NCBI RefSeq assembly: GCF_900167205.1
Contig: NZ_FUWW01000017.1
Span: 1 to 41,710 of the forward strand
Source of the DNA: Eubacterium coprostanoligenes
GTDB lineage: Bacteria > Bacillota > Clostridia > Oscillospirales > Acutalibacteraceae
Length of the DNA: 41,710 nucleotides
Direction: 5' to 3'
The notes beneath the pieces are model-generated. The model saw only the letters and a list, made by a program, of their open reading frames with translations. It did no database searches and had not been told where the DNA came from. Each line of letters begins with the position of its first letter. Position 1 is the first letter of the stretch. Shown here piece by piece: positions 15,006 to 41,710 of the stretch. Made by a program: the position numbers and the translations under genes.

Positions 15006-15040
15006 CAGACTGTCGATAAAATTCCTGAAACACGCCGAAT
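15006..15040 (-). repeat. Isolated end of the 0.3-kb MITE-like repeat
   Basis: CAGACTGTCGATAAA at 15006-15020 and AAACACGCC at 15028-15036 match, with the same spacing, the end of the copies at 29700-29715 (inverted) and 41331-41360. The other end and the internal hairpin are absent, so this is a remnant. It begins 5 bases after the stop codon of the DUF4091 gene. Confidence 0.75.
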
Positions 15041-25683: not shown

Positions 25684-25925
25684 AACAATTGAAGAATTAA
25701 TGCGATGAACAGGTGTAAGTAGAGTGTCCGTTTGATGAAAGAGAGTGCACGGTCGGTGTGAGTGCATATCGGCGGGGATTTGAATTTCAGCCTGCGAGCA
25801 CCCTGCGAGCAATTAAGTAGGGCGTACACCTGCGATAAAGGTAAGAGTGGCATATTTTATGTATGCAATTTGAGTGGTACCACGGAAATTTTCGTCTCAT
25901 ATTTATGAGGCGCTTTTATTTTTTT
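25684..25925 (+). ncRNA. T-box leader (tRNA-Phe sensing) of pheST
   Basis: The leader contains the T-box core GAGTGGTACCACGG (25872-25885), followed by an intrinsic terminator and then pheS. A candidate specifier codon TTC (Phe) lies in GAATTTCAG (25786-25788) in Stem I, agreeing with the downstream gene. Uncharged tRNA-Phe would bind the specifier and the T-box bulge and stabilise the antiterminator. An 11-base direct repeat, CCTGCGAGCAC, occurs just 3' of the specifier (25791-25801, with the second unit from 25802). It may alter the 3' side of Stem I. Confidence 0.92.
25893..25912 (+). terminator. Regulated terminator of the T-box
   Basis: CGTCTCAT (25893-25900) and ATGAGGCG (25905-25912) form an 8-bp stem with one wobble and a 4-base loop. 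CTTTTATTTTTTT follows. It overlaps the 3' side of the antiterminator region. Confidence 0.88.
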
Positions 25926-25939
25926 ATGGAGGAAAATCA

Positions 25940-26992
25940 ATGGAACAAAAGATTAAAGACTTAAGATCCAAGTTTGAAAAAGAACTTGAAAATATTAAGG
26001 ATTTGTCTGAACTTGAGGATGTTCGTGTTGCATATCTCGGCAAAAAGGGAAGTGTAACCGATTTGCTCAAGGCAATGAAGGAACTTTCAGTCGAAGACAA
26101 AAAGGCTTTCGGACAAAAAGTAAACGAACTTAAGGGCGTTGTTGCTCAAAGAATTGCCGAAAAAACAGCAGAAATGAAAGAAAAGGAAGTTCAAAAGGAA
26201 ATCGAGCTTATGCCTGAATTTGACCTTTCTCTTCCTGCAAATTTGGCAAGAGGTTCATATCACCCTGTAACAATCGTTCAGCGTCAGTGTGAGCAGATAT
26301 TCAAGTCGATGGGCTTTACAGTTGAGGATTATCCCGAGGTTGTAACCGACTATGAATGCTTTGAATCTGTTAATGTGCCAAAGGATCACCCGGCTCGTGA
26401 TATGCAGGACACCTATTATCTCACAAACGGTCAACTTTTGAAGTCGCAGACTTCAGCTGCACAAAATGCTATTTTGAAAAAATATAAGGATGACCTTATC
26501 AATAACGGCACACCTATCAAGGCTATTTTCCCGGGCAGATGCTTCCGTAACGAAGCAACAGACGCTTGCCACGAAAACACTTTCTTCCAAATGGAAGGTA
26601 TGATGGTCGGCAAAGATATTTCTATTTCAAACCTTATCTACTTTATGAAAACTATGCTTTCGGAAGTGTTCCAAAAGGACATTAAGGTTAGACTTCGTCC
26701 GGGCTTCTTCCCATTCGTTGAACCCGGCTTTGAACTTGACATCAGCTGTCTTATCTGTGGCGGTGAGGGTTGCCCAAGCTGTAAGCACAGCGGTTGGCTC
26801 GAACTTTGCCCTTGCGGAATGATTCATCCGGAGGTTCTCCGTATGGGTGGCATTGACCCTGATGAATACACAGGCTTTGCGTTTGGCTTGGGTCTTACAA
26901 GACTTGTTATGATGAAATACGGCATTAAAGATATTCGTGATTTGAACGGCGGCAGCCTCAAGGCTATGAGCCAGTTCACCGATGATGAATAA
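25940..26992 (+). CDS. pheS: Phenylalanyl-tRNA synthetase alpha subunit
   Basis: A 350-residue class II synthetase subunit. An N-terminal coiled coil (about 1-90, many Lys/Glu) contacts tRNA, and the catalytic domain follows. Landmarks: GSYHPVTIVQRQCEQIF, motif 2 region GRCFRNEATDACHENTFFQMEG, RLRPGFFPFVEPGFELD and motif 3 GFAFGLGLTRLVMMKYGI. The ATG at 25940 follows GGAGG by 7 bases; the longer frame from 25874 would run through the terminator. It forms the alpha2beta2 enzyme with PheT, whose gene starts 17 bases downstream, and is controlled by the T-box leader. Confidence 0.97.
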   Translation: MEQKIKDLRSKFEKELENIKDLSELEDVRVAYLGKKGSVTDLLKAMKELSVEDKKAFGQKVNELKGVVAQRIAEKTAEMKEKEVQKEIELMPEFDLSLPANLARGSYHPVTIVQRQCEQIFKSMGFTVEDYPEVVTDYECFESVNVPKDHPARDMQDTYYLTNGQLLKSQTSAAQNAILKKYKDDLINNGTPIKAIFPGRCFRNEATDACHENTFFQMEGMMVGKDISISNLIYFMKTMLSEVFQKDIKVRLRPGFFPFVEPGFELDISCLICGGEGCPSCKHSGWLELCPCGMIHPEVLRMGGIDPDEYTGFAFGLGLTRLVMMKYGIKDIRDLNGGSLKAMSQFTDDE

Positions 26993-29384: not shown

Positions 29385-29715
29385 TAGGCTGTTGAGAAAG
29401 GTTCTGAATTTCGTTTTCTTGCGAACTTTGCTGTACCTCGTCAAAACATATTCCGTATAGAACAAAACAGAGTTTTGTAAGTATACTACATATGTTTTTC
29501 CTCTTTCCAAAAAATCTACTGATTTTTTGGAAGCCTTATATTTGCTTGTTCGCAAAAAACGAAAAACGCCAAAAGTGCCGCAAACTCGATGCTTGCGGCA
29601 CTTTTCTTAAATAGTAATATTAAATTAATAGTATTCCGGGATAGGCAAGCCTATCCCCTACTTAATGTGTGTTAATATAATTTTGGCGTGGTTCAGGGGC
29701 TTTATCGACAGTCTG
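29385..29715 (+). repeat. MITE-like repeat, copy 1 (331 bp)
   Basis: The left end TAGGCTGTTGAGAAAG (29385-29400) and the right end CTTTATCGACAGTCTG (29700-29715) are imperfect inverted repeats of each other (12 of 16). Shared internal blocks are TTCTGAATTTCGTTTTCTTG after the left end, AACGAAAAACGCC before the central hairpin and TTTGGCGTG before the right end. Relative to the other two copies it has about 106 extra bases (29441-29552), including a perfect 12-bp hairpin TTCCAAAAAATC/GATTTTTTGGAA. It also has a GGGATAGGC/GCCTATCCC hairpin (29638-29657). No transposase is encoded. It fills the gap between pheT and its terminator. Confidence 0.85.
29571..29605. terminator. Central hairpin of repeat copy 1
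   Basis: AAAAGTGCCGCAA (29571-29583) pairs with TTGCGGCACTTTT (29593-29605), flanked by A- and T-runs, so it is a plausible terminator on either strand. Confidence 0.7.
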
Positions 29716-29716
29716 A

Positions 29717-29746
29717 AAGGTGTTCATTTTGAAGAATGAGCACCTT
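29717..29746 (+). terminator. Terminator downstream of pheT and repeat copy 1
   Basis: AAGGTGTTCATT (29717-29728) pairs with AATGAGCACCTT (29735-29746), 12 bp with one wobble, followed by TTTT. It is separated from pheT by the inserted repeat. Confidence 0.85.
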
Positions 29747-29759
29747 TTTTGTATAGACT

Positions 29760-30068
29760 TTAATCTAATGCGTCTTTTACCGCATCGCCGGCTTTGTCAA
29801 CGCTTCCGCCAACACCGTTTGCGATTTTGTCAGCGCCCTCACCGATGTCATCGCTCACCTTGTCGGCACGGCGAGAAACATCGTTTCCGGCTTTGGATAA
29901 ATCTTCCTCAACCTTGGTTGTGGTGGTTTCTATTTTTGTTGTGGTTTCCTTGGTGGTTGCGATTGTTGGCTTTTGTGTGGTTGGAGTGTTGTCTTTTTTG
30001 CTTGAACATCCAACAAAAATTATAGCCGACATAATAACTGCAAGTGCAATAATGATTATTTTTTTCAT
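29760..30068 (-). CDS. Small Thr-rich lipoprotein
   Basis: A 102-residue protein with a lipoprotein signal peptide: MKKIIIIALAVIMSAIIFVGCSS, with the lipobox Cys at about residue 21. After the Cys comes a Thr/Lys-rich linker (PTTQKPTIATTKETTTK). A predicted amphipathic helix carries repeated Asp/Ala/Gly (ADKVSDDIGEGADKIANGVG), resembling YtxH/CsbD-like helical repeats. I prefer the ATG at 30068, with AAAGGATGAT upstream; an ATG at 30080 overlaps that site. It follows the YpeB-like gene by 56 bases on the same strand, suggesting a joint role at the membrane or spore, but no specific function is known. Confidence 0.75.
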   Translation of the reverse strand: MKKIIIIALAVIMSAIIFVGCSSKKDNTPTTQKPTIATTKETTTKIETTTTKVEEDLSKAGNDVSRRADKVSDDIGEGADKIANGVGGSVDKAGDAVKDALD

Positions 30069-30124
30069 AGTTTGTATCATCCTTTCAGTGGTAGTATTTG
30101 CATATCATTTTGTGTTATTCAAAT

Positions 30125-31453
30125 TTATTTTACCAAAGTGCCGTTTGCGGATTTCAGAAGAATCATAATGTCCTCCTCGTCACCTGTGTCGCAGTTGATA
30201 TAAACAAGAGTGTCCTCGCCTGTGTCGTTGCTTTTGCAGGTGAACTCGTAGCACTGAACTTCTTTTCCGCTCTCCTTTGGAATAACGCACATTTTTGAAC
30301 TTTTCACTTCAAGGTATCGAGAAAGTTTTTTCTTCGCTTGATTTGTTGATAACTTTGCGATTTTCGGTTCTCTTTTGATGTGATTTGTCAAATATGTTTT
30401 TGCATCAATGCCAATCAAATTGCCGTCATTCATAGAAATTGCAACTTTGATTAAATCCGAATAGTAGCAGGTGTTGTCTTTTTGGTATGCACAGTTGACC
30501 GTGCAAATGTTGTTTTCAACATTGTAGTAGCAAACCGTCATATTGTCGTAGCCTAATTTTTCAAGAGCTTTGATAGCAAGATTGCACGCATTTTCTGCCG
30601 TGATGTTTGAACTTTGAATTCTGCCGGAATATAAAATTTCTTTTATATATCCGCCTTGCTTGGTGACAAGTCCTGTGTATCGTCCGCATTTGAAGGTGTA
30701 GCACGGAATTCTTGATTTGTCGTCTGTTTCGTATGATACATTCTTGATGTCGATGCCGAGAGCGTCTGCAAAGATTTGTCTGCATTCTTCTTGTGTTTTC
30801 ACTTCTCCCGATTTCACAAGCCTTGACGCTTTTCTCAACACTTGGTCAGAAAAAGGTCCGTCATACAGCAGGGTGGGGAAATCTTCAAATATTTCTGCCC
30901 CTGTGCTGAAGCCGTTTGCAAGCGGAGTGACATTGATTTTGCTTGTGCTTTTCACCTCGTTGTCGGTGATCATTGCGCCCGAATTGACTGTTGCAACCAT
31001 ATTTTTGGTCTGCTCGTTGAATTTTTCGGCATAGCGTAGCAGTGCTTTCAAGTTGTCGTGTTCTTCATGCGTGATTTGCTCGCCGTTGTCGATTTTTGTG
31101 CCGATATATTGTGCGTAGTCACTGCATTGGCTCAAAAATTTGTATGCGTTGGTCAGCTCCATTTGGTTTATCGGCAGTCGGCTCATTGCGTTTTTTGCAG
31201 TTGAACACTGTGCATATAAATCTCTGCTTAAATCATAGATTTCACCGTTTGAATTTGACATCAAACTTTTGGTAATATCCGTGTTCACTTTGTCAAGACA
31301 TTCGCTCAATTCCGCAAGACTTTGTTGGTACGAAACTTCAAGCTCTGTTTTGTATGCTTTCATATTTGATGCACTCAAAACACTTGATGCAACGATGATT
31401 ATCAGCATAAATCCGATGTAGGAAACAATCCTGATGTAGCTTCTTTTTGTCAT
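30125..31453 (-). CDS. ypeB: YpeB-like germination protein
   Basis: A 442-residue protein with an N-terminal membrane anchor (about 8-28), a helical region (30-185) and a C-terminal part with PepSY/YpeB-type repeats. The segment FPTLLYDGPFSDQVL is highly typical of YpeB. In Bacillus and Clostridia YpeB partners the spore cortex-lytic enzyme SleB and is needed for its localisation and stability, so its presence indicates a spore-forming lineage. No sleB is next to it here. The start has AAAGGAG about 8 bases upstream. The downstream lipoprotein gene is on the same strand. Confidence 0.85.
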   Translation of the reverse strand: MTKRSYIRIVSYIGFMLIIIVASSVLSASNMKAYKTELEVSYQQSLAELSECLDKVNTDITKSLMSNSNGEIYDLSRDLYAQCSTAKNAMSRLPINQMELTNAYKFLSQCSDYAQYIGTKIDNGEQITHEEHDNLKALLRYAEKFNEQTKNMVATVNSGAMITDNEVKSTSKINVTPLANGFSTGAEIFEDFPTLLYDGPFSDQVLRKASRLVKSGEVKTQEECRQIFADALGIDIKNVSYETDDKSRIPCYTFKCGRYTGLVTKQGGYIKEILYSGRIQSSNITAENACNLAIKALEKLGYDNMTVCYYNVENNICTVNCAYQKDNTCYYSDLIKVAISMNDGNLIGIDAKTYLTNHIKREPKIAKLSTNQAKKKLSRYLEVKSSKMCVIPKESGKEVQCYEFTCKSNDTGEDTLVYINCDTGDEEDIMILLKSANGTLVK

Positions 31454-31521
31454 ATATATACTCCTTTATCATTTTTCACCTCTATTGTTTACACAATTTA
31501 GCCAAAAATACATCTTTTTAA

Positions 31522-31550
31522 TTGCAACGCTAATATTACTGTGCTATAAT
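31522..31550 (+). promoter_or_regulatory. Promoter of the proBA operon
   Basis: TTGCAA (31522-31527), a 17-base spacer, extended -10 TGCTATAAT (TATAAT at 31545-31550). Confidence 0.75.
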
Positions 31551-31584
31551 ATTAAACTGAATTATAATATTGGAGCAAAAATTT

Positions 31585-32355
31585 ATGCAAAAGAAGAGAA
31601 TTGTAGTAAAGGTCGGCACTTCCACCCTTACTCATAAGACAGGAAAAACAAATATCCAAAAAATCGGGGAGCTTGTATCCGTGCTTGCAGACTTGCATAA
31701 TATGGGACACGAGGTTATTCTTGTGTCATCGGGTGCTATCGGAATCGGCACGGCTCGTCTTGGTTTGCATAAAAAGCCCCAGAGCATAAAGGGCAGACAG
31801 GCGGCAGCTGCTGTCGGTCAGGGTGAACTTATGTTCCTTTATGACAAGTTTTTCGGCGAATATGATGTTATTGTTTCACAGCTTCTTTTCACATATGATG
31901 CACTTGAAAACAAGGAAAACAAGATGCACCTCACAAACACATTTAATCAGCTTATCGAATACGGCGTTATTCCGGTTGTAAACGAAAACGACTCCGTGTC
32001 AATCGAGGAACTTTTGAACGGCGACAACGATTGTCTTTCTGCAACGGTGGCAGAACTTATTGATGCGGATTTGCTTGTTATGCTCACCGATACAGACGGC
32101 TTGTACGACAGTAATCCGTCAGAAAATCCCGATGCAAAACTCATCCCTGTTGTAAAAGAAATCACTCCGGAGATTGAAGCGGTTGCAGGCGGAGCAGGCG
32201 AAAAGGGAACAGGCGGTTTTGCAACAAAGGTTAAGGCTGCAAAGATTGCCAACGGCGCAGGTATCCCGGTTGTTGTTATGAACGGTATCACACCAAAGAA
32301 AATTTACAATGTGCTTGACGGAGAAAGTGTCGGCACAAGATTTTTACCTAATTGA
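31585..32355 (+). CDS. proB: Glutamate 5-kinase
   Basis: A 256-residue amino-acid kinase that phosphorylates glutamate in the first step of proline synthesis. Signatures are RIVVKVGTSTLTHKTGK, VILVSSGAIGIGTARLGL, PVVNENDSVS, LLVMLTDTDGLYDSNP and GTGGFATKVKAAKIANGAG. The C-terminal PUA domain found in longer ProB proteins is absent, as in many Clostridia. The ATG at 31585 follows GGAG by 9 bases; the frame can open at a TTG at 31570, which overlaps that site. proA starts 33 bases downstream. Confidence 0.96.
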   Translation: MQKKRIVVKVGTSTLTHKTGKTNIQKIGELVSVLADLHNMGHEVILVSSGAIGIGTARLGLHKKPQSIKGRQAAAAVGQGELMFLYDKFFGEYDVIVSQLLFTYDALENKENKMHLTNTFNQLIEYGVIPVVNENDSVSIEELLNGDNDCLSATVAELIDADLLVMLTDTDGLYDSNPSENPDAKLIPVVKEITPEIEAVAGGAGEKGTGGFATKVKAAKIANGAGIPVVVMNGITPKKIYNVLDGESVGTRFLPN

Positions 32356-32388
32356 TTTATTTTTCCGAATGAACGGAGGAGTTTTGAT

Positions 32389-33630
32389 ATGACAGTTTTT
32401 GAACAGGGCAAAAATGCAAAGCAAACGCTTACCTTTATGTCGCAGGTCACAACCGAGCAAAAAAACAACGCTCTCGGTATTATTGCCGATATGCTTGAGG
32501 AAAATATAGAAAAGATTGTTTCTGCCAATGCAGTTGATATTGAAAACGGCAGAAAAAACGGACTTGGTGACGGACTTATTGACCGCCTTATGCTCAATGC
32601 CGACAGAATTAAGGCTATGGCAGACGGCGCCCGTCAGGTGGCTTCTTTGCCCGACCCATGTGGCAGATTGCTTTCCGAATACAAGAAGGATAACGGACTT
32701 GATATTAAAAAAATTACCGTGCCGTTGGGTGTTATCGGAATAATCTTTGAAGCTCGTCCGAATGTCACAGTTGATGCGGCGGCTCTGTGTCTTAAAAGCG
32801 GAAATGCCGTAATTCTTCGAGGTGGCAAGGAGGCGATTAATTCAAACACAGCTCTTGCCGATATTATGCGAGAGGCACTTGCAAAGGCAGGCTTTCCGCA
32901 GGATGTTATTCAGCTTGTCGGCGACACTTCAAGGCAGTCGGCAACTGATATGATGAATATGAACGAATACCTTGATTGCCTTATTCCGAGAGGCGGTAAA
33001 GGTCTTATCAAGGCTGTTGTTGAAAACTCAACAGTGCCTGTAATCGAAACCGGTTCGGGCAATTGCCATATTTATGTTGACGAAAGTGCAGATATTAATA
33101 TGGCTGCAAATATTATATTTAATGCAAAAACACAGAGAATATCTGTGTGCAATGCTTGCGAAAGTCTTGTTATCAACAGCAAGATTATTAACAAGGCTTT
33201 GCCTATTATTGCAAAAAAGCTCAAGGAAAAGGATGTTGAAATCCGTGGTGACGAGCGTGCTCAAAAGGCTTGCGAACTTGTTGCACCTGCAACCGATGAG
33301 GATTTTGCAACCGAATACCTTGATTATATAATCAGCGTAAAAACTGTTGATACTATTGATGAGGCAATTGCTCACATCAATGCAAATTCAACGGGTCACA
33401 GCGAAGCTATTATTACCGAAAACAAGGAAAATGCCGAAAAGTTTTTGAAGTGCATTGATTCTTCTTCCGTTTATGTAAATGCTTCAACAAGATTTACTGA
33501 CGGCGGAGAATTTGGCCTTGGTGCGGAAATCGGCATTTCAACTCAAAAGCTTCATGCAAGAGGTCCTATGGGACTTGAACAACTTACATCAACAAAATAT
33601 TTGATTTACGGAGACGGACAAGTCAGATAA
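32389..33630 (+). CDS. proA: Gamma-glutamyl phosphate reductase
   Basis: A 413-residue aldehyde-dehydrogenase-fold enzyme that reduces glutamyl 5-phosphate to glutamate semialdehyde with NADPH. Landmarks: LGVIGIIFEARPNVTVDAA, LKSGNAVILRGGKEA, the catalytic-Cys region QRISVCNACESLV and the C-terminal FGLGAEIGISTQKLHARGPMGLEQLTS. The ribosome binding site GGAGGAG lies about 9 bases upstream of the start. It is the second gene of the operon, and its stop overlaps the next start by one base. Confidence 0.97.
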   Translation: MTVFEQGKNAKQTLTFMSQVTTEQKNNALGIIADMLEENIEKIVSANAVDIENGRKNGLGDGLIDRLMLNADRIKAMADGARQVASLPDPCGRLLSEYKKDNGLDIKKITVPLGVIGIIFEARPNVTVDAAALCLKSGNAVILRGGKEAINSNTALADIMREALAKAGFPQDVIQLVGDTSRQSATDMMNMNEYLDCLIPRGGKGLIKAVVENSTVPVIETGSGNCHIYVDESADINMAANIIFNAKTQRISVCNACESLVINSKIINKALPIIAKKLKEKDVEIRGDERAQKACELVAPATDEDFATEYLDYIISVKTVDTIDEAIAHINANSTGHSEAIITENKENAEKFLKCIDSSSVYVNASTRFTDGGEFGLGAEIGISTQKLHARGPMGLEQLTSTKYLIYGDGQVR

Positions 33631-34901
33631 TGAAAAGAAAAGATAACGAATATTCATACATTCAACCACAGGTTGATAACAAAAGAAAAAAGAAAAAGAG
33701 GAAAAAGAAAAAAGGCGGTTTCGGCAAGGTATTGCTTGTGATTATTGCTTTGCTTGTGATTTTGATTGCAGGCGGACTTGTTTCCGTTAAGTATATTTTC
33801 ACCGATTTTTATTTCAGTGAGGTTTTGCCAAACAAGGAAGTTGCGGATTTTGTTGATGAAAACATCATCGGAAGAACAACTACAACCATAACCCAACCTC
33901 GTGAAACAACCACCGAGCCGACCACTTTGTCGCAGGTGTCCTATCTTGACCACTCTGATTTTGAATTTGAGGCAAGCAAAAAGGGCGGAATGATCGGCAA
34001 TCTTTTGAACGGTGGCAAGGTCGAAAAAGACAACGGAATTGTCTATCACATTGTTGACGGCAGAGGTATTTACAAGTTCTTGCCCGATAGTGAAAGTTAC
34101 GCCTGTGTTTATAAATCAAGTGACACACTTTCATCGTTTAACATCAGAGGCGACTACTTCTATTTTGTTAATGAAAGCGATAATTCGCTTTACAAAATAA
34201 CTATGACCGGCAAAAATCTTGCCAAGGTTGCCGAAAATGTAAAACTTGCGTATATCTACGACACAACAGCTTACTGCCTTTCGACAAACAACGAGGTTGT
34301 GGCTGTCAACACACAGGATTTCACATACAAAGTGCTTTATTCAGGCTATGGCGATAAGGTTAATTTGATTGGCATTTCGCTTGACAGAGTGTTCTTTACA
34401 AGCGAGGATATGTCGGGAAATGTGGCTTATTTCTGCGTGCTTTCAACAGGCGGGGAAGAAGAACGCTTCAGACCTGACAGCAAAAACGGCGAGATTGCTT
34501 CTATGATTATGGAAAGCGGTTTTATGTATTATTATGAAAAACAGCCGGACGGCAAGTACAACATCATTCGTCAAAAGTACGGCTCACAAAAAAAGGTCAC
34601 TTTGGTTGAGGGCGTCAGCCTTTGTAAGCCTGTTGTTGTTGACCAAAACAGAATGTTTTATGCCGACCTTGACGGCGACAAGTTCAAGATGTTTGAGCTT
34701 AATATGAACAGCGAAGCAACAAAAATGATGCTTTATTCAGGCAATGTCACAGCAGGTGATGATGTGTTTATTCAGCACGGCGGTGAATATGATTTTATTA
34801 TAGGTGAGCGTTCAAACGGCGACAAGATTTATCGTGCGTCATCGAATCTCACGGGTTCGTCAAATGTTATGACCTTTGGCAACGGCAAATGGAGTTACTA
34901 A
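33630..34901 (+). CDS. Membrane-anchored protein with DUF5050-like beta-propeller-type repeats
   Basis: A 423-residue protein. The N-terminus is extremely basic (RKKKKRKKKKGG, residues 19-30), followed by one membrane helix (about 33-54), a Thr-rich linker (TTTTITQPRETTTEPTT) and an extracytoplasmic domain of about 320 residues. That domain repeats a short pattern of the type YFYFVNESDNSLYKITMTG and RVFFTSEDMSGNVAYF, as in DUF5050 proteins, which have propeller-like folds. Its start overlaps the proA stop by one base (TAATG), so translation is coupled. The flippase follows by 18 bases. An envelope role is likely and has no obvious relation to proline synthesis. Confidence 0.75.
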   Translation: MKRKDNEYSYIQPQVDNKRKKKKRKKKKGGFGKVLLVIIALLVILIAGGLVSVKYIFTDFYFSEVLPNKEVADFVDENIIGRTTTTITQPRETTTEPTTLSQVSYLDHSDFEFEASKKGGMIGNLLNGGKVEKDNGIVYHIVDGRGIYKFLPDSESYACVYKSSDTLSSFNIRGDYFYFVNESDNSLYKITMTGKNLAKVAENVKLAYIYDTTAYCLSTNNEVVAVNTQDFTYKVLYSGYGDKVNLIGISLDRVFFTSEDMSGNVAYFCVLSTGGEEERFRPDSKNGEIASMIMESGFMYYYEKQPDGKYNIIRQKYGSQKKVTLVEGVSLCKPVVVDQNRMFYADLDGDKFKMFELNMNSEATKMMLYSGNVTAGDDVFIQHGGEYDFIIGERSNGDKIYRASSNLTGSSNVMTFGNGKWSY

Positions 34902-34919
34902 TTTAAGAGGTAAAGATTT

Positions 34920-36344
34920 TTGGATAAATATAAAAAATTAGCCACAAATACAATAATATTTGCAATCGGTACATTTTCTTCAAAGATTTTGTCCTTTTTG
35001 CTTATGCCTTATGTCACAGGCAAACTTATGCCGGAGGATTATTCGACTGCCGATTTGATTCAGCAAACCGCAAATGTCCTCATTCCGATAGTGTTTTTGC
35101 AAATAAACAGTGCGGCACTTCGCTTTGCTCTTGACAAGAACGAAAACAAAAGCGATGTTTTCACCATCGGTGTGCGAACAACGCTTAAAGGCTTTTTGGC
35201 ATTTTTGATTTTTTACTATCCTGTGACCTTGATAAAAATCAACGATATGGCACTCGGCGATTATGCTCCCTTACTGTATCTTTTCGTGTTGGTTTCGGGT
35301 ATGCGCCAGCTTTGCCAGCAGTTTGTACGAGGCTGCGGACAGGTTAGGATTTTTGCAATTGACGGTATTATTGCAACCGCAACAACCCTGCTCTTTAATC
35401 TTTTGTTCCTCGGTCCGCTTAATATGGGTGTTACCGGCTATGTACTTGCTATCATTGCATCCGATTTTATGTCGGTTGTGTTCCTCTTTGTTGCAACAAA
35501 ATTGTGGAACGACCTTCATTTCCATAAGGTGAATAAGAAAACAAAGATTGATATGCTCAAGTATTCTGTTCCGCTTATGCCAACAATTATTTTGTGGTGG
35601 ATAATCAATGTGTCGGACAGATATATGGTAACAGGCTTTATCGGTTCTGCCGAAAACGGACTTTATACAGCTGCTTCAAAGATTCCGAACTTTGTTGTTA
35701 TGTTCTCGTCAATTTTCATTGATGCGTGGCAGTTGTCTGCTGTTGATGAATACGACAGTGAGGATAAGGCAGACTTCTTCACAAAGGTGTTTCGTGTTTA
35801 TTCTGGCGGTATCTTTGCCGTTTCGTCAGCACTCATCTTGGGATGTCAGCTTATAACAAAAATTTTGGTTAAACCTAATTATTATGATTCTTGGCAGTTT
35901 GTTCCTATTCTGATTATTGCAACAACACTTTCGTGCCTTGTAAACTTCCTTGCATCCGTTTATATGGCAGAGAAAAAGTCGGTTATGGCTATGGTTACCG
36001 CTATGTCGGGAGCATTGACAAATATTGTGCTCAATTTGATTTTGATTCCGAATGTTGGTGCAATCGGTGCTGCAATAGCAACTGTTGTTGCATTTGCCGT
36101 TGTGTTCATTTTCAGAGGGGCAAATACAAAAAAATATATCGCAATCAATTTCAACACACCGCTTCTTATTGCCGAGGTTGCAATCCTTGCAGTTCAGTGC
36201 ATTGTTATGATAAAGCTAAAGTCGGGGGCAATGATGTACGGCATCGAATCGGCTCTTGTTTTGGCTATGCTTTTGGTAAATATCAAGCCTATAAAAGAAC
36301 TTGCAAACAAGATTTTTGGCAGATTTTTAAAGAAAAGTAAGTGA
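34920..36344 (+). CDS. Oligosaccharide flippase family protein (Wzx/MATE-like)
   Basis: A 474-residue integral membrane protein with about 14 helices. It begins MDKYKKLATNTIIFAIGTFSSKILSFLLMPYVTG, the classic start of polysaccharide biosynthesis (RfbX/Wzx) flippases. Other MOP-superfamily features are AENGLYTAASKIPNFV and the polar residues in early helices. It would move lipid-linked sugars across the membrane. It starts at a TTG (34920) with AAGAGG 9 bases upstream. It is the last gene of the proB-proA-DUF5050 operon and ends at the hairpin at 36353. No polysaccharide glycosyltransferase genes lie next to it. Confidence 0.88.
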   Translation: MDKYKKLATNTIIFAIGTFSSKILSFLLMPYVTGKLMPEDYSTADLIQQTANVLIPIVFLQINSAALRFALDKNENKSDVFTIGVRTTLKGFLAFLIFYYPVTLIKINDMALGDYAPLLYLFVLVSGMRQLCQQFVRGCGQVRIFAIDGIIATATTLLFNLLFLGPLNMGVTGYVLAIIASDFMSVVFLFVATKLWNDLHFHKVNKKTKIDMLKYSVPLMPTIILWWIINVSDRYMVTGFIGSAENGLYTAASKIPNFVVMFSSIFIDAWQLSAVDEYDSEDKADFFTKVFRVYSGGIFAVSSALILGCQLITKILVKPNYYDSWQFVPILIIATTLSCLVNFLASVYMAEKKSVMAMVTAMSGALTNIVLNLILIPNVGAIGAAIATVVAFAVVFIFRGANTKKYIAINFNTPLLIAEVAILAVQCIVMIKLKSGAMMYGIESALVLAMLLVNIKPIKELANKIFGRFLKKSK

Positions 36345-36352
36345 TTTTTGCA

Positions 36353-36384
36353 AAAAGACTTCTTATTTATACAAGAGGTCTTTT
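36353..36384 (+). terminator. Terminator of the proBA-flippase operon
   Basis: AAAAGACTTCTT (36353-36364) pairs with AAGAGGTCTTTT (36373-36384), 12 bp with one wobble, followed by GTGTTTTTG. Confidence 0.8.
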
Positions 36385-36422
36385 GTGTTTTTGTGTAAAA
36401 TGTATATATTTGGCTGTGACTA

Positions 36423-36451
36423 TTGAAAAACTTGCATTTTTAGTGTACAAT
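36423..36451 (+). promoter_or_regulatory. Promoter of glgP
   Basis: TTGAAA (36423-36428), a 17-base spacer and TACAAT (36446-36451), 56 bases before the start codon. Confidence 0.65.
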
Positions 36452-36506
36452 ATACAAAAAATAAGAAATAACATATCATTTTTAAATAAATTTTTGGAGG
36501 AATTGT

Positions 36507-39116
36507 ATGAAAACGACTATTTCTACAACACAAGCAAAGAAGCTTATAACCGATAAGCTTTCTCATTTCTTCGGTGTAGCACCTGATGTTGCTACTGACG
36601 AGCAGTTTTATAAGGCTGTTGCTATGATAGTCCGTGATGAACTTTCAAAGAAAAACAGTGATTTCAGACATACAGCAAAAGGACAGGACTCAAAAGAAAT
36701 CTATTATCTTTGTATGGAATTCTTGATGGGTCGTTCACTCAAGAACAATCTTTATAATCTCGGACTTACCGAAACATTTGACAAGGCCCTTTCATCAATG
36801 GGCGTAAAGCTCGATAATCTCTATGAACAAGAGCCTGATGCAGGACTTGGCAACGGCGGTTTGGGTCGTCTTGCTGCCTGCTATCTTGACGGGCTTGCAA
36901 CAACAGGCTTTCAGTCAATGGGTTATTCACTCCGCTATGAAGCAGGTATTTTCAAGCAGAAGTTGATTGACGGCTGGCAGACAGAACTCCCTGATTTCTG
37001 GCTTCCGGGCGGTGAAGTTTGGCTTGTTCCTCGTGAGGAGCGTTCATGCAAAGTTGCATTTGAGGGCTATATCGAGGATAGCTGGGACGGTGATTTCCAC
37101 CATGTAAATCATAAAGACGCCAATGTTGTTGAGGCTATTCCGTACGATATGTATGTTTCGGGCAAAGGCGAGGGTGTTTCTCGACTTCGTTTGTGGGCAG
37201 CCAAGAAGCCTGAACTTGATATGACTCTTTTCAACGAGGGTTCATATATGAAGGCTATGGAGCAATCTGCTATGGCAGAGGCTATCACAAAGGTTCTTTA
37301 TCCTGCCGATAATTCACCTGAAGGCAAGTCACTCCGTCTTCGTCAGCAGTACTTCCTTGTTTCTGCTTCGATTCAGGATATTATTCAGCGTCACCTCACA
37401 AAGTACGGCACTCTTGATAATCTTCCTGACAAGGTTGCAATTCATATTAATGATACTCACCCGACAATGGCTATTCCTGAACTTATGAGAATTATGCTTG
37501 ACGAATGCGGATATAGCTGGGATGATGCGTGGTCAATCGTAACTCGCACAGTTGCATACACAAACCACACTGTTATGAAAGAAGCACTTGAATGTTGGAG
37601 CGAAGAACTCTATTCTCGTCTTCTTCCTCGTATTTATCAAATTACCAAGGAAATTGACAACCGCTTCCGTGCATATGTTTGGTCGGCAACCTATGATGCA
37701 GACAGAGTTGAGCGTATGGCAGTTGTTTCAAACGGCGTTGTTCGTATGGCTAACCTTTGCGTTATCGGTTCACATAGCGTAAACGGTGTTTCCGCACTTC
37801 ATTCGGAAATTCTTAAGGAAACCGTATTCAACGATTTTTATAATCTTACTCCGGCAAAATTCTGTAATGTAACAAACGGTATTGCATTCCGCCGTTGGAT
37901 TTGCCAGGCAAACCCTGCTTTGACCGATTATATCACTTCTCTTATCGGTGACGGATTTATCACAAAGAGTGATGAACTCGAAAAGCTCCGTCAGTTCAAG
38001 GACGACAAAAAAGTTCTTGCAAAACTTGATGAAATCAAGCACGAAAACAAGGTTCGCTTTGCAAAGATTATCAAAAAGCGTAACGGTGTTGATATTAACC
38101 CTGATTCCATTTTTGATGTTCAGGTTAAGCGACTTCACGAATATAAAAGACAGCAACTCAATATTCTCAACATTATTTCTGAATATCAGATGCTCAAGGA
38201 AAATCCAAATGCGGATTATTATCCAAAGACATATATCTTTGCTTCAAAGGCCGCTCCGGGCTACTTTATGGCAAAGAAACTTATTCAGCTTATTGACGCA
38301 CTTTCAAATGTTATCAACAATGACCCTGATGTAAACGACAAACTCAAGGTTGTGTTCCTTGAAGATTACAATGTTTCTCTTGCAGAGGTGCTTATGCCGG
38401 CTGCCGACATCAGTGAGCAGATTTCTCTTGCAGGCACAGAGGCATCGGGCACAGGTAATATGAAACTTATGCTCAACGGTGCTATAACTCTCGGCACTCT
38501 TGACGGCGCAAATGTAGAAATTCACGATGCTGTCGGTGAGGATAATATTTACATCTTCGGTATGAAAACTCCGGAGGTTGAACAGCTCAAAAAGGCTGGA
38601 TACTTCCCACAGAGCTATATTCAAAACAACGAAGCACTTGCAAAGGCTATGGCATTTTTGCAAAACGGTGTAAACGGCAAGAAGTTTGATGAGGTTTACT
38701 ATTCACTTGTAAATACCGACCCATATATGGCACTTGCAGATTTCACCGATTATCAGCGTGCTCAAAGAGAAATTTCAAAGGCTTATGCCGACAGAGAAAA
38801 GTTTGTCAAAATGTCTTTGATGAACATTTCGGGTGCAGGCATATTCTCTGCCGACCGTTCCATTATGGATTATGCAAACAACATTTGGCACACAAAGCCT
38901 GTTCAGTTTGCAAAGGAAACTCCAAAGGCAGCCAAAAAGTCAAAGCCTATGGCTCCAAAGAGCGAAATCAAGGCAGAGCCTGAAAAGGAAGAAAAAAAAG
39001 AAGCAAAGGTAGAACCGAAAAAGGTGGAAAAGAAAGCAGAGAAAAAGGTTGCTCCAAAGAAAGAAGCACCAAAAGCCCCTGCAAAGAAGCCGGCTTCAAA
39101 ATCAAAGAAAAAATAA
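36507..39116 (+). CDS. glgP: Glycogen/maltodextrin phosphorylase with a Lys/Ala/Pro/Glu-rich C-terminal tail
   Basis: An 869-residue GT35 enzyme that releases glucose 1-phosphate from alpha-1,4-glucans. Motifs: EPDAGLGNGGLGRLAACYLD near residue 110, HINDTHPTMAIPELMR, the phosphate-site KRLHEYKRQQLN, and EASGTGNMKLMLNGA with the PLP-binding Lys653. The catalytic part ends near residue 800, the usual length. It is followed by about 67 residues (803-869) of low-complexity sequence rich in Lys, Ala, Pro and Glu (KKAEKKVAPKKEAPKAPAKK and the like). Such tails are not part of the standard family. The start has GGAGG 6 bases upstream. The gene stands alone after its own promoter; the repeat copy 2 starts 7 bases after its stop. 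It probably works with the GH13 enzyme downstream. Confidence 0.95.
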   Translation: MKTTISTTQAKKLITDKLSHFFGVAPDVATDEQFYKAVAMIVRDELSKKNSDFRHTAKGQDSKEIYYLCMEFLMGRSLKNNLYNLGLTETFDKALSSMGVKLDNLYEQEPDAGLGNGGLGRLAACYLDGLATTGFQSMGYSLRYEAGIFKQKLIDGWQTELPDFWLPGGEVWLVPREERSCKVAFEGYIEDSWDGDFHHVNHKDANVVEAIPYDMYVSGKGEGVSRLRLWAAKKPELDMTLFNEGSYMKAMEQSAMAEAITKVLYPADNSPEGKSLRLRQQYFLVSASIQDIIQRHLTKYGTLDNLPDKVAIHINDTHPTMAIPELMRIMLDECGYSWDDAWSIVTRTVAYTNHTVMKEALECWSEELYSRLLPRIYQITKEIDNRFRAYVWSATYDADRVERMAVVSNGVVRMANLCVIGSHSVNGVSALHSEILKETVFNDFYNLTPAKFCNVTNGIAFRRWICQANPALTDYITSLIGDGFITKSDELEKLRQFKDDKKVLAKLDEIKHENKVRFAKIIKKRNGVDINPDSIFDVQVKRLHEYKRQQLNILNIISEYQMLKENPNADYYPKTYIFASKAAPGYFMAKKLIQLIDALSNVINNDPDVNDKLKVVFLEDYNVSLAEVLMPAADISEQISLAGTEASGTGNMKLMLNGAITLGTLDGANVEIHDAVGEDNIYIFGMKTPEVEQLKKAGYFPQSYIQNNEALAKAMAFLQNGVNGKKFDEVYYSLVNTDPYMALADFTDYQRAQREISKAYADREKFVKMSLMNISGAGIFSADRSIMDYANNIWHTKPVQFAKETPKAAKKSKPMAPKSEIKAEPEKEEKKEAKVEPKKVEKKAEKKVAPKKEAPKAPAKKPASKSKKK

Positions 39117-39123
39117 TTTTGAA

Positions 39124-39444
39124 AACTCCCCTTATACGTAGGCTGTTGAGAAAGTTTCTGAATTTCGTTTTCTTGCGAAGGAAGATGTACGATGGTACCT
39201 CGACTGAGCAAAAAATGAAAAACGCCAAAAGTGCCGCAAATTCGATGTTTGCGGTACTTTTACAATCCCTCCGTCAACACTTTGCGTTACCACCGTCTCA
39301 CCTGCCGGTTCGGTCGGTGCTTCTGCATTAAAATGCAGAGGTCTCCACAGGAGACCCGCACCCTTTACACAAAGAAGGCGTTAGATGGTTAGATTATTGC
39401 TTTGGCGTGTTTCAGATACTTTATCGGCAGCCTAAAGGGGAGTT
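39124..39444 (+). repeat. MITE-like repeat, copy 2 (321 bp including outer arms)
   Basis: The core runs from TAGGCTGTTGAGAAAG (39139-39154) to CTTTATCGGCAGCCTA (39419-39434), again imperfect inverted ends. It is flanked by a further exact inverted pair, AACTCCCCTT (39124-39133) and AAGGGGAGTT (39435-39444), which is not shared with other copies. The interior has the central hairpin (39227-39261), CTGCAT/ATGCAG and GGTCTCC/GGAGACC hairpins (about 39322-39355) and a CGTCAACACT block shared with copy 3. No real coding sequence is seen; frames through it are repeat-derived. It fills the space between glgP and the GH13 gene (39117-39469). Confidence 0.85.
39227..39261. terminator. Central hairpin of repeat copy 2
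   Basis: AAAAGTGCCGCAAA (39227-39240) pairs with TTTGCGGTACTTTT (39248-39261), 14 bp with one G-U wobble. It is probably the effective terminator for glgP. Confidence 0.7.
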
Positions 39445-39469
39445 GTCGTGTGAATAGATAATATATAAT

Positions 39470-41344
39470 ATGGTATTTAATTCTCGCAGTAAAGAATATA
39501 AAGATAAAATCCGTGCCATCGCAACCGATGAGCCTGTAAAGCTTCGTATAATTGTGCCTCGCTCAATGAAATGCAGCGGGGCTACTCTTTGTGTTCACAA
39601 GGAAAACGAAAACAATGTCTACAACTCTATGTTCTGGGCAGGTATGTGCGGTGATGACAAGGAGTATTGGGAACTTCATTTTGTTGCCGACACCCCCGGT
39701 CTTTATTGGTATCATTTTGAACTTGACACCCCATGGGGCAAAAGTTTCGTGCGAAATGTCGGTCACGGTCACGGGGAGTTCTCGCCTGATGGGGCAGACT
39801 TTCAGCAGACGGTCTATGACAAGGATTTTGCCACTCCCGACTGGCTCAAGGGTGGCATAATTTATCAGATTTTTCCTGACCGTTTTTATAATTCCGGCAA
39901 GAAAAAAACAGGATACAGAAAAAGTCGTGTTCTTCGCAAATGGGGCGAAGAGCCTTTTTGGCGAGAAGAACAGATGAACGGCATTTGGAACAATGATTAT
40001 TTCGGCGGTGACCTTTTGGGTGTTGAGGAAAAACTTCCTTACTTAAAGGATTTGGGCGTAACTTGTATTTATCTCAATCCGATTTTTGAGGCAAATTCCA
40101 ACCATAGATACGACACAGCCGATTATGAAAAAATCGACCCGCTTTTGGGCACCGAAAAGGACTTGAAAAATCTCTGCAAGGTTGCAAAAAATGAGTACGG
40201 CATTTCGATTATTCTTGACGGTGTGTTCAGTCACACAGGTTGTGACAGCAAGTACTTTAATTTGTACAATAATTACAACAGCATCGGTGCGTACAACAGC
40301 CAAAACAGTCCGTATTATTCGTGGTATAAATTTATCAATTATCCCGATGAATACGATTCGTGGTGGGGCATTAAACTTCTGCCTGAAGTCAGAGAAGAGG
40401 ACGAAAGCTATCGTGAATATATCTGTGGCAAAGACGGAATTTTGCGTAAATGGCTCAAATGCGGCATAGCCGGTTGGCGTCTTGATGTTGCGGATGAACT
40501 TCCAGATGTGTTCCTTGATGATTTGCGCAAGGCGGTCAAGGAGGAAAACAGCGACGCCGTTATTATCGGTGAGGTTTGGGAAGACGCAACCACAAAGTTT
40601 GCCTATGGTCAGCGTCGCCGTTATCTCCTCGGAGAACAGCTCGACAGCGTTATGAACTATCCGTTTGCAAATGCGGTTTTGGATTTTGTGAAATACCCAA
40701 ATGCCCATGAATTTTTTGACCGTGTGATGACGGTTGTTGAAAACTATCCGCCGCAGGTTACAAATGTTTTGATGAATCATATCGGCACTCACGATACGGA
40801 GCGTGCAATCAGTCGACTTGCGGGTGACAGTTGTGAGGGCTATGGCAGACATTGGCAGTATGAACACAACAAACTTTCCGAATATGAATATTTGCGTGGA
40901 CTTTCGCTGATGAAAATCGCATCGCTTATTCAGTATACATTGCCGGGTGTGCCGTCACTTTATTATGGTGATGAAATCGGTATGGAAGGTCGCAAAGACC
41001 CGTTCAACCGTGCTTGTATGAATTGGGAAGAACCGAACAACGAACTTCTCCGTTGGTATAAGCGACTCGGAGAAATCCGAATTGGTTGCAAGGTGCTTGC
41101 AAAAGGCGAGTTTGTGCCGTTATATAGCGAACACAAAACTATTGCATATCTCCGCACGGACGAAAACAGCGAACTTTTGGTGGCTGTCAATCTCGATGAC
41201 ACCGATGTTGATATTTTCGTCGGTGAGCAGTGGGATAATTCGTATTGCTTTTTTGACGAGTCGGCAACAGACGGATATATCCACCTCGAACCTATGCGAT
41301 ATACTTTGTTAACCAGAGTAATAGAATTTTCAGACTGTCGATAA
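39470..41344 (+). CDS. GH13 alpha-glucan hydrolase (neopullulanase/cyclomaltodextrinase-like)
   Basis: A 624-residue alpha-amylase-family enzyme with an N-terminal beta domain (about 1-120, CBM34-like), a GH13 barrel and a C-terminal beta domain. The barrel starts GGIIYQIFPDRF. Catalytic residues are Asp339 in GWRLDVADE, Glu368 in IIGEVWED and Asp442 in GTHDTER. No signal peptide is seen, so it acts in the cytosol on maltodextrins or cyclic glucans, complementing the phosphorylase upstream. No good ribosome binding site precedes the ATG at 39470; AGGGGAG lies about 25 bases upstream, inside the end of repeat copy 2. The final codons (SDCR and stop) lie in the end of repeat copy 3, so the natural C-terminus has probably been replaced or slightly altered by its insertion. 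Confidence 0.93.
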   Translation: MVFNSRSKEYKDKIRAIATDEPVKLRIIVPRSMKCSGATLCVHKENENNVYNSMFWAGMCGDDKEYWELHFVADTPGLYWYHFELDTPWGKSFVRNVGHGHGEFSPDGADFQQTVYDKDFATPDWLKGGIIYQIFPDRFYNSGKKKTGYRKSRVLRKWGEEPFWREEQMNGIWNNDYFGGDLLGVEEKLPYLKDLGVTCIYLNPIFEANSNHRYDTADYEKIDPLLGTEKDLKNLCKVAKNEYGISIILDGVFSHTGCDSKYFNLYNNYNSIGAYNSQNSPYYSWYKFINYPDEYDSWWGIKLLPEVREEDESYREYICGKDGILRKWLKCGIAGWRLDVADELPDVFLDDLRKAVKEENSDAVIIGEVWEDATTKFAYGQRRRYLLGEQLDSVMNYPFANAVLDFVKYPNAHEFFDRVMTVVENYPPQVTNVLMNHIGTHDTERAISRLAGDSCEGYGRHWQYEHNKLSEYEYLRGLSLMKIASLIQYTLPGVPSLYYGDEIGMEGRKDPFNRACMNWEEPNNELLRWYKRLGEIRIGCKVLAKGEFVPLYSEHKTIAYLRTDENSELLVAVNLDDTDVDIFVGEQWDNSYCFFDESATDGYIHLEPMRYTLLTRVIEFSDCR

Positions 41345-41624
41345 AGTCTCTTAAACACGCCAAAATATAATCAACCGAATTATGCCTCCTTTTTTTTAAA
41401 AGGTGATTCCCCCGTTAATCGGGGGAAATGTCTGCAACGCAGACAAAAGGGGGCGTCTACGCAGTAAAGGTGGCAACACGAAGTGTTGACGGTGGGGTTT
41501 AAAAAATGCTGTAAGTATCGAACTTACAGCATTTTTGGCGTTTTTCGTTTTTTGCTCAGTCGAGGTATTTATATACATCTTCCTTCGCAAGAAAACGAAA
41601 TTCAGAACCTTTCTCAACAGCCTA
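41331..41624 (-). repeat. MITE-like repeat, copy 3 (294 bp, inverted)
   Basis: Present in the opposite orientation: CAGACTGTCGATAAAG (41331-41346) is the right end and CTTTCTCAACAGCCTA (41609-41624) the left end. Inside are AAACACGCCAAAAT, hairpins CCCCCG/CGGGGG and GTCTGC/GCAGAC (about 41410-41445), CAACAC/GTGTTG (about 41474-41487), the central hairpin (41502-41536), and the GGCGTTTTTCG and GCAAGAAAACGAAATTCAGA blocks shared with copies 1 and 2. The right end supplies the last codons of the GH13 gene. A short outer inverted pair, ATTTTCA/TGAAAAT (41326-41332, 41633-41639), also flanks it. Confidence 0.85.
41502..41536. terminator. Central hairpin of repeat copy 3
   Basis: AAAAATGCTGTAAGT (41502-41516) and ACTTACAGCATTTTT (41522-41536) form a perfect 15-bp stem. 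Its sequence differs from copies 1 and 2 at several positions on both arms, yet pairing is kept. Confidence 0.75.
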
Positions 41625-41657
41625 CAGCGTGTTGAAAATAATTATTTAAATACACTC

Positions 41658-41681
41658 AAAGGGACTGATTTTAGTCCCTTT
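41658..41681 (+). terminator. Terminator beyond repeat copy 3, probably the original GH13-gene terminator
   Basis: AAAGGGACT (41658-41666) and AGTCCCTTT (41673-41681) form a 9-bp stem followed by TTCTTTTTG. The repeat lies between it and the GH13 gene. Nothing else is supportable in 41625-41710. Confidence 0.8.
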
Positions 41682-41710
41682 TTCTTTTTGCTATTTGCCA
41701 AATAATGTTT

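Follow-up and report, generated by a model that had tools for sequence, protein, structure and literature searches.

The 41,710-nt stretch of DNA analyzed here (the window) is contig 32 of the 35-contig, 1.82-Mb genome of Eubacterium coprostanoligenes (NZ_FUWW01000017.1), and it carries three full copies and one solitary end of a repeat of about 0.3 kb. In related genomes, most complete copies of this repeat stand between two copies of the same hairpin. We conclude that the repeats are very probably miniature inverted-repeat transposable elements (MITEs) on which an IS1182-family transposase acts in trans; this transposase, of a group whose ends read about CAGNCTGTCGAAAAAG, would target and duplicate the whole hairpin of an intrinsic terminator. 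An earlier note on the window had described a MITE-like family with these three copies and the solitary end; the description holds, and it extends to at least 49 copies or ends across the genome.

Duplicated hairpins around the repeats

We collected 90 loci from the genus (29 from a repeat search, one behind pheT and 60 places picked from a listing), a sample that favors high-scoring copies; 70 were scorable and 20 failed our thresholds. In 51 of the 70, a palindromic segment, M (CAGCGTGT[AC]GAAA...CTTTTTC[TG]ACACGCTG), lies past the L end and closes the element. The head, or R end, of such complete copies reads CAGACTGTCGATAAAG and the other end, as reverse complement, CAGCGTGT[AC]GAAAAAG, terminal inverted repeats that match at about 12 of 16 positions (one of the 70 copies, longer than 350 bp, was left out of this comparison), and 49 of the 51 complete copies measure 264–295 bp. 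Inverted ends had been recognized in the earlier note, although the right end that it named was the L end and the true one lies beyond it, in M.

In 39 of the 51 complete copies, the sequence preceding the head resembles that following M (direct score of at least 14). This holds for none of the 19 copies that lack M and for 4 of 4830 cross-pairs, and a scoring hairpin stands on both sides in 44 of the 51 complete copies. The clean duplications (n = 36; three of the 39 alike pairs gave none) span 19–42 bp with a median of 25. Within the E. coprostanoligenes genome itself, whose copies are more decayed than those of the relatives, the hairpin is duplicated around three of the seven copies with M (control, 0 of 930), and one further duplicated copy is apparently split over contigs 25 and 6. 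At the heads of this genome, a hairpin (score of at least 16) ends 0–3 nt away in 21 of the 42 copies with at least 45 bases of flank, as against 99 of 2064 control positions placed 5–60 nt behind stop codons. The MITEs share the palindromic target of an IS1182 derivative. They are also short, multi-copy and dispersed, with terminal inverted repeats, a target site duplication, no transposase gene (in the window copies) and ends in common with an autonomous element. At three loci (L115, L254 and L232) the inverted score of the flanking hairpins exceeds the direct one, as if the second copy had been flipped, and at L337 the loop of the second flanking hairpin reads in reverse.

The element also has a hairpin of its own, 35 nt long with A- and T-tracts, which is found at a constant position in nearly all copies and is missing from a 105-bp deletion copy. 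This internal hairpin is covarying and terminator-like: across its 15 pairs, 61 distinct sequences show 95.1% Watson-Crick pairing, compared with a mean of 59.1% and a maximum of 63.3% in the shuffled control. The percentage is conditional, because it leaves out 9 of 102 copies in which no 35-nt hairpin reached 11 of 15 pairs, and it takes copies as they come, whatever their relatedness. In the window copies scanned, 1 and 3, the hairpin scored as terminator-like.

IS1182-family elements with matching ends and target

The repeat was matched in 51 of 80 congeneric genomes, in searches that scored few candidates per genome (9 in the 80-genome repeat search). The transposase domain PF13751 was found in nine of the same 80, and the 10 loci examined include two complete insertion sequence (IS) elements, L168 and L166, whose ends read CAGACTGTCGAAAAAG and CAGCTTGTCGAAAAAG. 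The L168 element spans positions 383–1981, has the ends CAGACTGTCGAAAAAG and CAGACTGTAGAAAAAC, and is flanked by identical 26-bp hairpin copies, AAGGATGCGGTTTTCACCGCATCCTT; L166 is flanked by identical 24-bp hairpin copies, AAGAGAGTACATACGTACTCTCTT. Their proteins pass the IS1182 model NF033551 with 410.8 and 420.7 bits, respectively (cut-off, 270), and the MITE end matches that of L168 at 15 of 16 positions. By eye, four other loci (L167, L170, L171 and L173) have their left end behind a hairpin, and no element end was found at L169 and L174. The earlier note had proposed looking for a transposase with matching inverted repeats; the genus supplies two, and none was found intact in the E. coprostanoligenes genome, which keeps a relic on contig 21 (28714–29192). 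The end of this relic, identical to the MITE head in 14 of 16 positions, lies directly behind a terminator hairpin downstream of tRNA-Thr (CGT), with a transposase fragment following.

Order-wide, NF033551 matches occur in 119 of 394 genomes, 29 of them above the cut-off. Among the 30 IS1182 loci examined, nine combine CAG-type ends with a duplicated hairpin (score 27–39), two resemble insertions between hairpin arms and 15 have no believable ends, the ends having been chosen by a score that itself includes the duplication. The two that resemble insertions between arms (L335 and L340) have other ends (GCTGTTGACAAA) and, by eye, seem to lie between hairpin arms with a 7–9-bp loop repeat, possibly a second insertion mode of IS1182-type elements.

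The most likely course of events is that the transposase recognizes the hairpin, perhaps in extruded form, and joins the element at the hairpin feet, after which repair would copy the hairpin and yield the order T1 hairpin, element, T2 hairpin. Each terminator copy would lose the A- or T-tract on its element side; the element's own hairpin brings A- and T-tracts, so transcription of both neighbors could still end, and the two terminator copies plus the internal one would render the insertion tolerable. Being redundant, the hairpins could later be lost, either T1 or the right end together with T2; the loss of M would take T2 with it, since the 19 copies without M show no duplication. Deletion of T1 would stop at the coding sequence and so leave the head at the stop codon. 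Terminator targeting and the element's own stop-signal hairpin would therefore place the repeats just behind genes. We give roughly even credence to a broader proposal, in which this IS1182 branch reads the shape of an extruded hairpin and copies the terminator, while a selected MITE terminator makes insertion near-neutral, so that portable terminators spread. Such terminators may become the main terminator of host genes, pheT in the window perhaps being an example.

Gene ends, empty sites and competing explanations

Two BLAST queries and one pattern search, followed by a fuzzy scan of the fetched stretches, detected 53 copies or ends in the E. coprostanoligenes genome; dropping four duplicates on overlapping contig ends leaves at least 49 distinct ones, a minimum given that 40 of 71 candidates were scored in one BLAST search and 40 of 83 in the other. 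The 33 full copies that were aligned group near 230, 294, 330 and 390 bp owing to optional internal blocks. These blocks (about 64 and 100 bp; 39265–39370 and 41409–41480 in the window) vary between copies in mosaic fashion, and some can fold into hairpins. At C17:80393-80680 and C33:3841-4167 copies are tandem or nested, the end of one element adjoining the start of another. Contigs break in or near a MITE copy at the window end (41710) and at the ends of contigs 3, 6, 8, 14, 17, 18, 21, 25, 27, 28 and 29; the family therefore also restricts the assembly, in which further copies or an autonomous IS may be hidden.

Relative to genes, which were called in this genome and at the genus loci with a purpose-written dicodon script, full copies never overlap by more than about 36 nt, and always at a 3' end (solitary ends were checked at one coordinate each). 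Among the 37 copies flanked on either side by a called gene, 19 are in convergent, 16 in tandem and 2 in divergent settings, the window baseline being 3 convergent among 28 neighboring gene pairs. The 3'-end bias proposed in the earlier note is borne out, and the even spread within and between genes that it regarded as fatal to the idea was not seen among full copies. Its preference for 3' untranslated regions (UTRs) also stands, with the terminator hairpin as the target and not the stop codon as such. Stop-codon adjacency forms a second class of junction: 16 of the 21 hairpin-free heads in this genome lie at −14 to +9 of the neighboring gene's stop codon, as do 7 of the 9 genus heads that lack a hairpin and face a gene end, and we interpret such junctions as cases in which the gene-side hairpin was lost. 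An orientation rule with respect to genes was considered and rejected; tandem sites are head-first in 13 cases against 3 in this genome and in 17 against 11 in the genus, and the latter figures make head-first no firm rule.

In the closest relative by pheT search (G061), 20 gene ends were queried, two of which had no match (C32:15006 and C14:132576) and one of which (C21:40885, locus L190) was left out of the junction comparison, and all 17 sites examined lack the element. The alignments come within 9 nt of the junction at 13 of the 17 and end 41–65 nt short at four, and a core-motif scan of the 17 stretches found nothing at the junctions. Two of these stretches have another copy further on, one 183 nt downstream behind a different hairpin (L181) and one about 230–400 nt downstream (L185). 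At pheT, an element is present in one of the 29 other loci, where it follows the terminator of that gene directly (L143, genome G063); several of the 29 (among them L136, L139, L154 and L159) end about 130 nt or less past the stop codon and are therefore uninformative on absence. An exact 22-position pattern occurs in 69 stretches of GTDB r220 genome contigs; the names in their titles include Eubacterium sp., Oscillospiraceae, Ruminococcaceae, uncultured Clostridia and Clostridium sp. CAG:678, and one of the 69 is in an Erysipelotrichia record.

Several observations weigh against a MITE that is mobilized by IS1182 and duplicates terminators. No intact IS1182 transposase was found in the E. coprostanoligenes genome by profile searches, PF13751 is far less widespread in the genus than the repeat (9 against 51 of 80 genomes), and IS and MITE are alike over about 17 terminal bases, with little likeness beyond. 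Two IS1182-type loci of the genus (L165 and L172) have no hairpin at their end, and the flanking hairpins differ between sides in 4 of the 30 order loci. Among the repeats themselves, 12 of 51 complete copies have no recognizable duplication, half of the heads in this genome (21 of 42) have no hairpin, and window copy 2, the odd one, sits between two complementary hairpin arms. Scored strictly as foot-to-foot palindromes, the duplications average 0.56, a low value because this measure drops on a one-base shift, and the loss of the T-tract beside the head is expected of any insertion there and so is not independent evidence. Insertion between hairpin arms was rejected as the main mode, copy 2 being the only window copy that looks so.

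The shared stretch of about 17 terminal bases and the lack of an intact IS1182 gene in this genome would also suit MITEs moved by another transposase family whose ends are similar by chance. We consider this improbable: the MITEs agree with the IS1182 elements of the genus and the order in the sequence of their ends, in having a hairpin as target and in duplicating it whole, IS1182 being the family for which we searched. Insertion at random with respect to hairpins, with selection alone leaving copies in 3' intergenic regions, would explain why no full copy lies inside a gene and why convergent regions are over-represented. It could neither set a head 0–3 nt from a hairpin nor duplicate that hairpin, and IS1182 elements show like placement and duplication, which makes it very unlikely. 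Slimmer still is the chance that the repeats are a structured RNA family of 3' UTRs, maintained for a regulatory role and multiplied by recombination with no transposon involved. The strongly covarying internal hairpin, several foldable internal blocks and the position behind genes speak for it; the hairpin duplications, which strongly disfavor it, the transposase-type ends, the empty orthologous sites and the lack of a notable Rfam match speak against it. The repeat neither has a notable match to a known Rfam family nor recurs at the orthologous sites examined, and because the 17 sites in the closest relative are empty, it does not behave as the conserved RNA gene that the earlier note had held out as the alternative. 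An RNA held together by paired ends was likewise set aside: pairing of the L end with the R end is possible if G-U is allowed, but the empty sites, like the hairpin duplications, speak for DNA transposition. A TA duplication of the IS630/Tc1 type was rejected too: TA...TA flanks some copies, but CA, AA and GA occur as well, and the true right end lies further out.

More serious, though still the less likely account, is that the stop-codon class arose by replacement, with an occasional IS1272-like removal of the target hairpin bringing the head straight to the stop codon. The head junctions fall precisely at native stop codons, and in relatives a hairpin often starts a few bases from that stop codon (for instance at L184 and L182). 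IS1272 and TnSha1 of Staphylococcus, both of the IS1182 family, delete all or part of a hairpin and give no target duplication, according to the portions of the reports available to us (PMC5678879, PMC4923244). Three stop-codon heads lack 8–10 bases (C23:15456, C23:104648 and C29:1321), which could point to replacement, although truncated heads require a second deletion anyway. Deletion of the hairpin with no duplication is not what the complete genus copies show, 39 of 51 having a duplication, and four of the 51 (L124, L219, L216 and L243) have no scoring T1 and keep the hairpin behind the right end, so loss of T1 fits better than replacement. The stop-codon class could still stem from replacement at insertion, as the same junctions are expected. 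For the family as a whole, we retain transposition by an IS1182-type enzyme with duplication of the terminator hairpin.

Copies in the window and known systems

Coordinates of the repeats and their hairpins in the window
Feature	Position	Strand	Remarks
Solitary MITE head (R end)	15006..15039	-	behind GH123 gene
MITE copy 1	29385..29715	+	331 bp; L end 29385-29400
Internal terminator-like hairpin, copy 1	29571..29605	-	AAAAGTGCCGCAAGCATCGAGTTTGCGGCACTTTT
Head of copy 1	29700..29715		CAGACTGTCGATAAAGCC... is the reverse complement of these positions
T1 terminator hairpin abutting copy 1 head	29716..29747	-	side of convergent gene 29760-30068
Hairpin arm, left of copy 2	39124..39133	+	AACTCCCCTT, read directly; complementary to 39435-39444
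MITE copy 2	39139..39434	+	296 bp
Internal terminator-like hairpin, copy 2	39227..39261	+	
Hairpin arm, right of copy 2	39435..39444	+	AAGGGGAGTT, read directly
MITE copy 3	41331..41624	-	294 bp
Head of copy 3	41331..41346		supplies GH13 gene stop codon (41342-41344)
Internal terminator-like hairpin, copy 3	41502..41536	+	
Decayed right-end segment M, copy 3	41625..41657	+	probable, judged against intact M segments
Terminator hairpin behind copy 3	41658..41683	+	read as T2

The window elements neighbor the genes for GH123, pheT, glycogen phosphorylase and GH13. The earlier note had placed all four within about 10 bases of a stop codon or across it, which is right for the solitary end (5 nt behind the GH123 gene), for pheT (8 nt) and for the overlap with GH13, and wrong for glycogen phosphorylase, where the distance is 22 nt. 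It had called the first of these genes DUF4091; the site is correct, and the Pfam match is GH123_cat. Its copy 2, 39124–39444, wrongly took in the two 10-base flanking arms. Copy 3 has its head joined to GH13, a decayed M and a retained terminator, and copy 1 keeps T1 and has neither M nor T2 on the pheT side. A repeat search found inverted arms shared between window copies, one of 45 nt with 100% identity and one of 157 nt with 84%, far above chance. No open reading frame of at least 100 aa lies wholly within any window copy, in line with the earlier statement that the repeats encode no transposase. At gathering score, the Rfam matches in the window were limited to one T-box and one tRNA, and a permissive Rfam search of seven repeat loci gave three matches, all far under gathering score. 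The T-box leader (RF00230, 123.3 bits, 25696–25902) lies upstream of the gene at 25940–26992 that precedes pheT.

These repeats offer a large set of natural insertions by a DDE-type family that duplicates a whole hairpin and apparently targets the shape of that hairpin. This would explain the odd tendency of the elements to lie at stop codons, and it opens hairpin-dependent transposition to direct testing. It also suggests that, throughout a bacterial genus, transcription terminators are supplied and replaced by mobile elements. Two features appear new: the duplication of a whole terminator, and an IS1182-type MITE carrying a conserved terminator-like hairpin. Neither was found in the open-access papers searched, a set to which ISfinder and most subscription papers did not belong. 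IS1182 members appear in ISfinder with direct repeats that are long or variable, and specialists may therefore know such duplications.

Group IIC introns, like the MITEs here, insert beside terminator hairpins; they are ribozyme retroelements and, unlike these MITEs, have no terminal inverted repeats or target duplication. Among the small intergenic repeats of Streptococcus pneumoniae, SPRITE, BOX and RUP, the first resembles rho-independent terminators, but no shared sequence is known and duplication of a whole terminator target is not described in the sections available (PMC10969869). MITEPye1 of Paracoccus yeei likewise has IS1182-type ends, a mostly intergenic location and a foldable sequence, and differs in its 4-bp direct repeats and 1–3 copies per genome, with no terminator target reported in the extracts of its description (PMC11578231). 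The ISMac2-related MITEs of Methanosarcina acetivorans, 160–169 bp long, are also given with an IS1182-family partner; they are archaeal, are listed with short or no direct repeats, and are not reported to target terminators in the accessible part of the source (PMC3852290). IS1272 and TnSha1 are alike in family, in 16-bp ends and in an inverted-repeat or hairpin target of no fixed sequence, several such targets being transcription terminators; the MITE here is 0.27 kb and duplicates the hairpin whole. In the consulted parts of the IS1272 work, duplication of a whole stem-loop appears as a possible pathway (b) that was drawn only, whereas the IS1272 data showed replacement (PMC5678879). Our L168, L166 and the nine order loci share with the MITEs the CAGNCTGTCGAAAAAG-type ends, the terminator hairpin target and the whole-hairpin duplication, and differ in being about 1.5–1.6 kb long with a transposase gene, their likeness to the MITE lying mostly in the ends.

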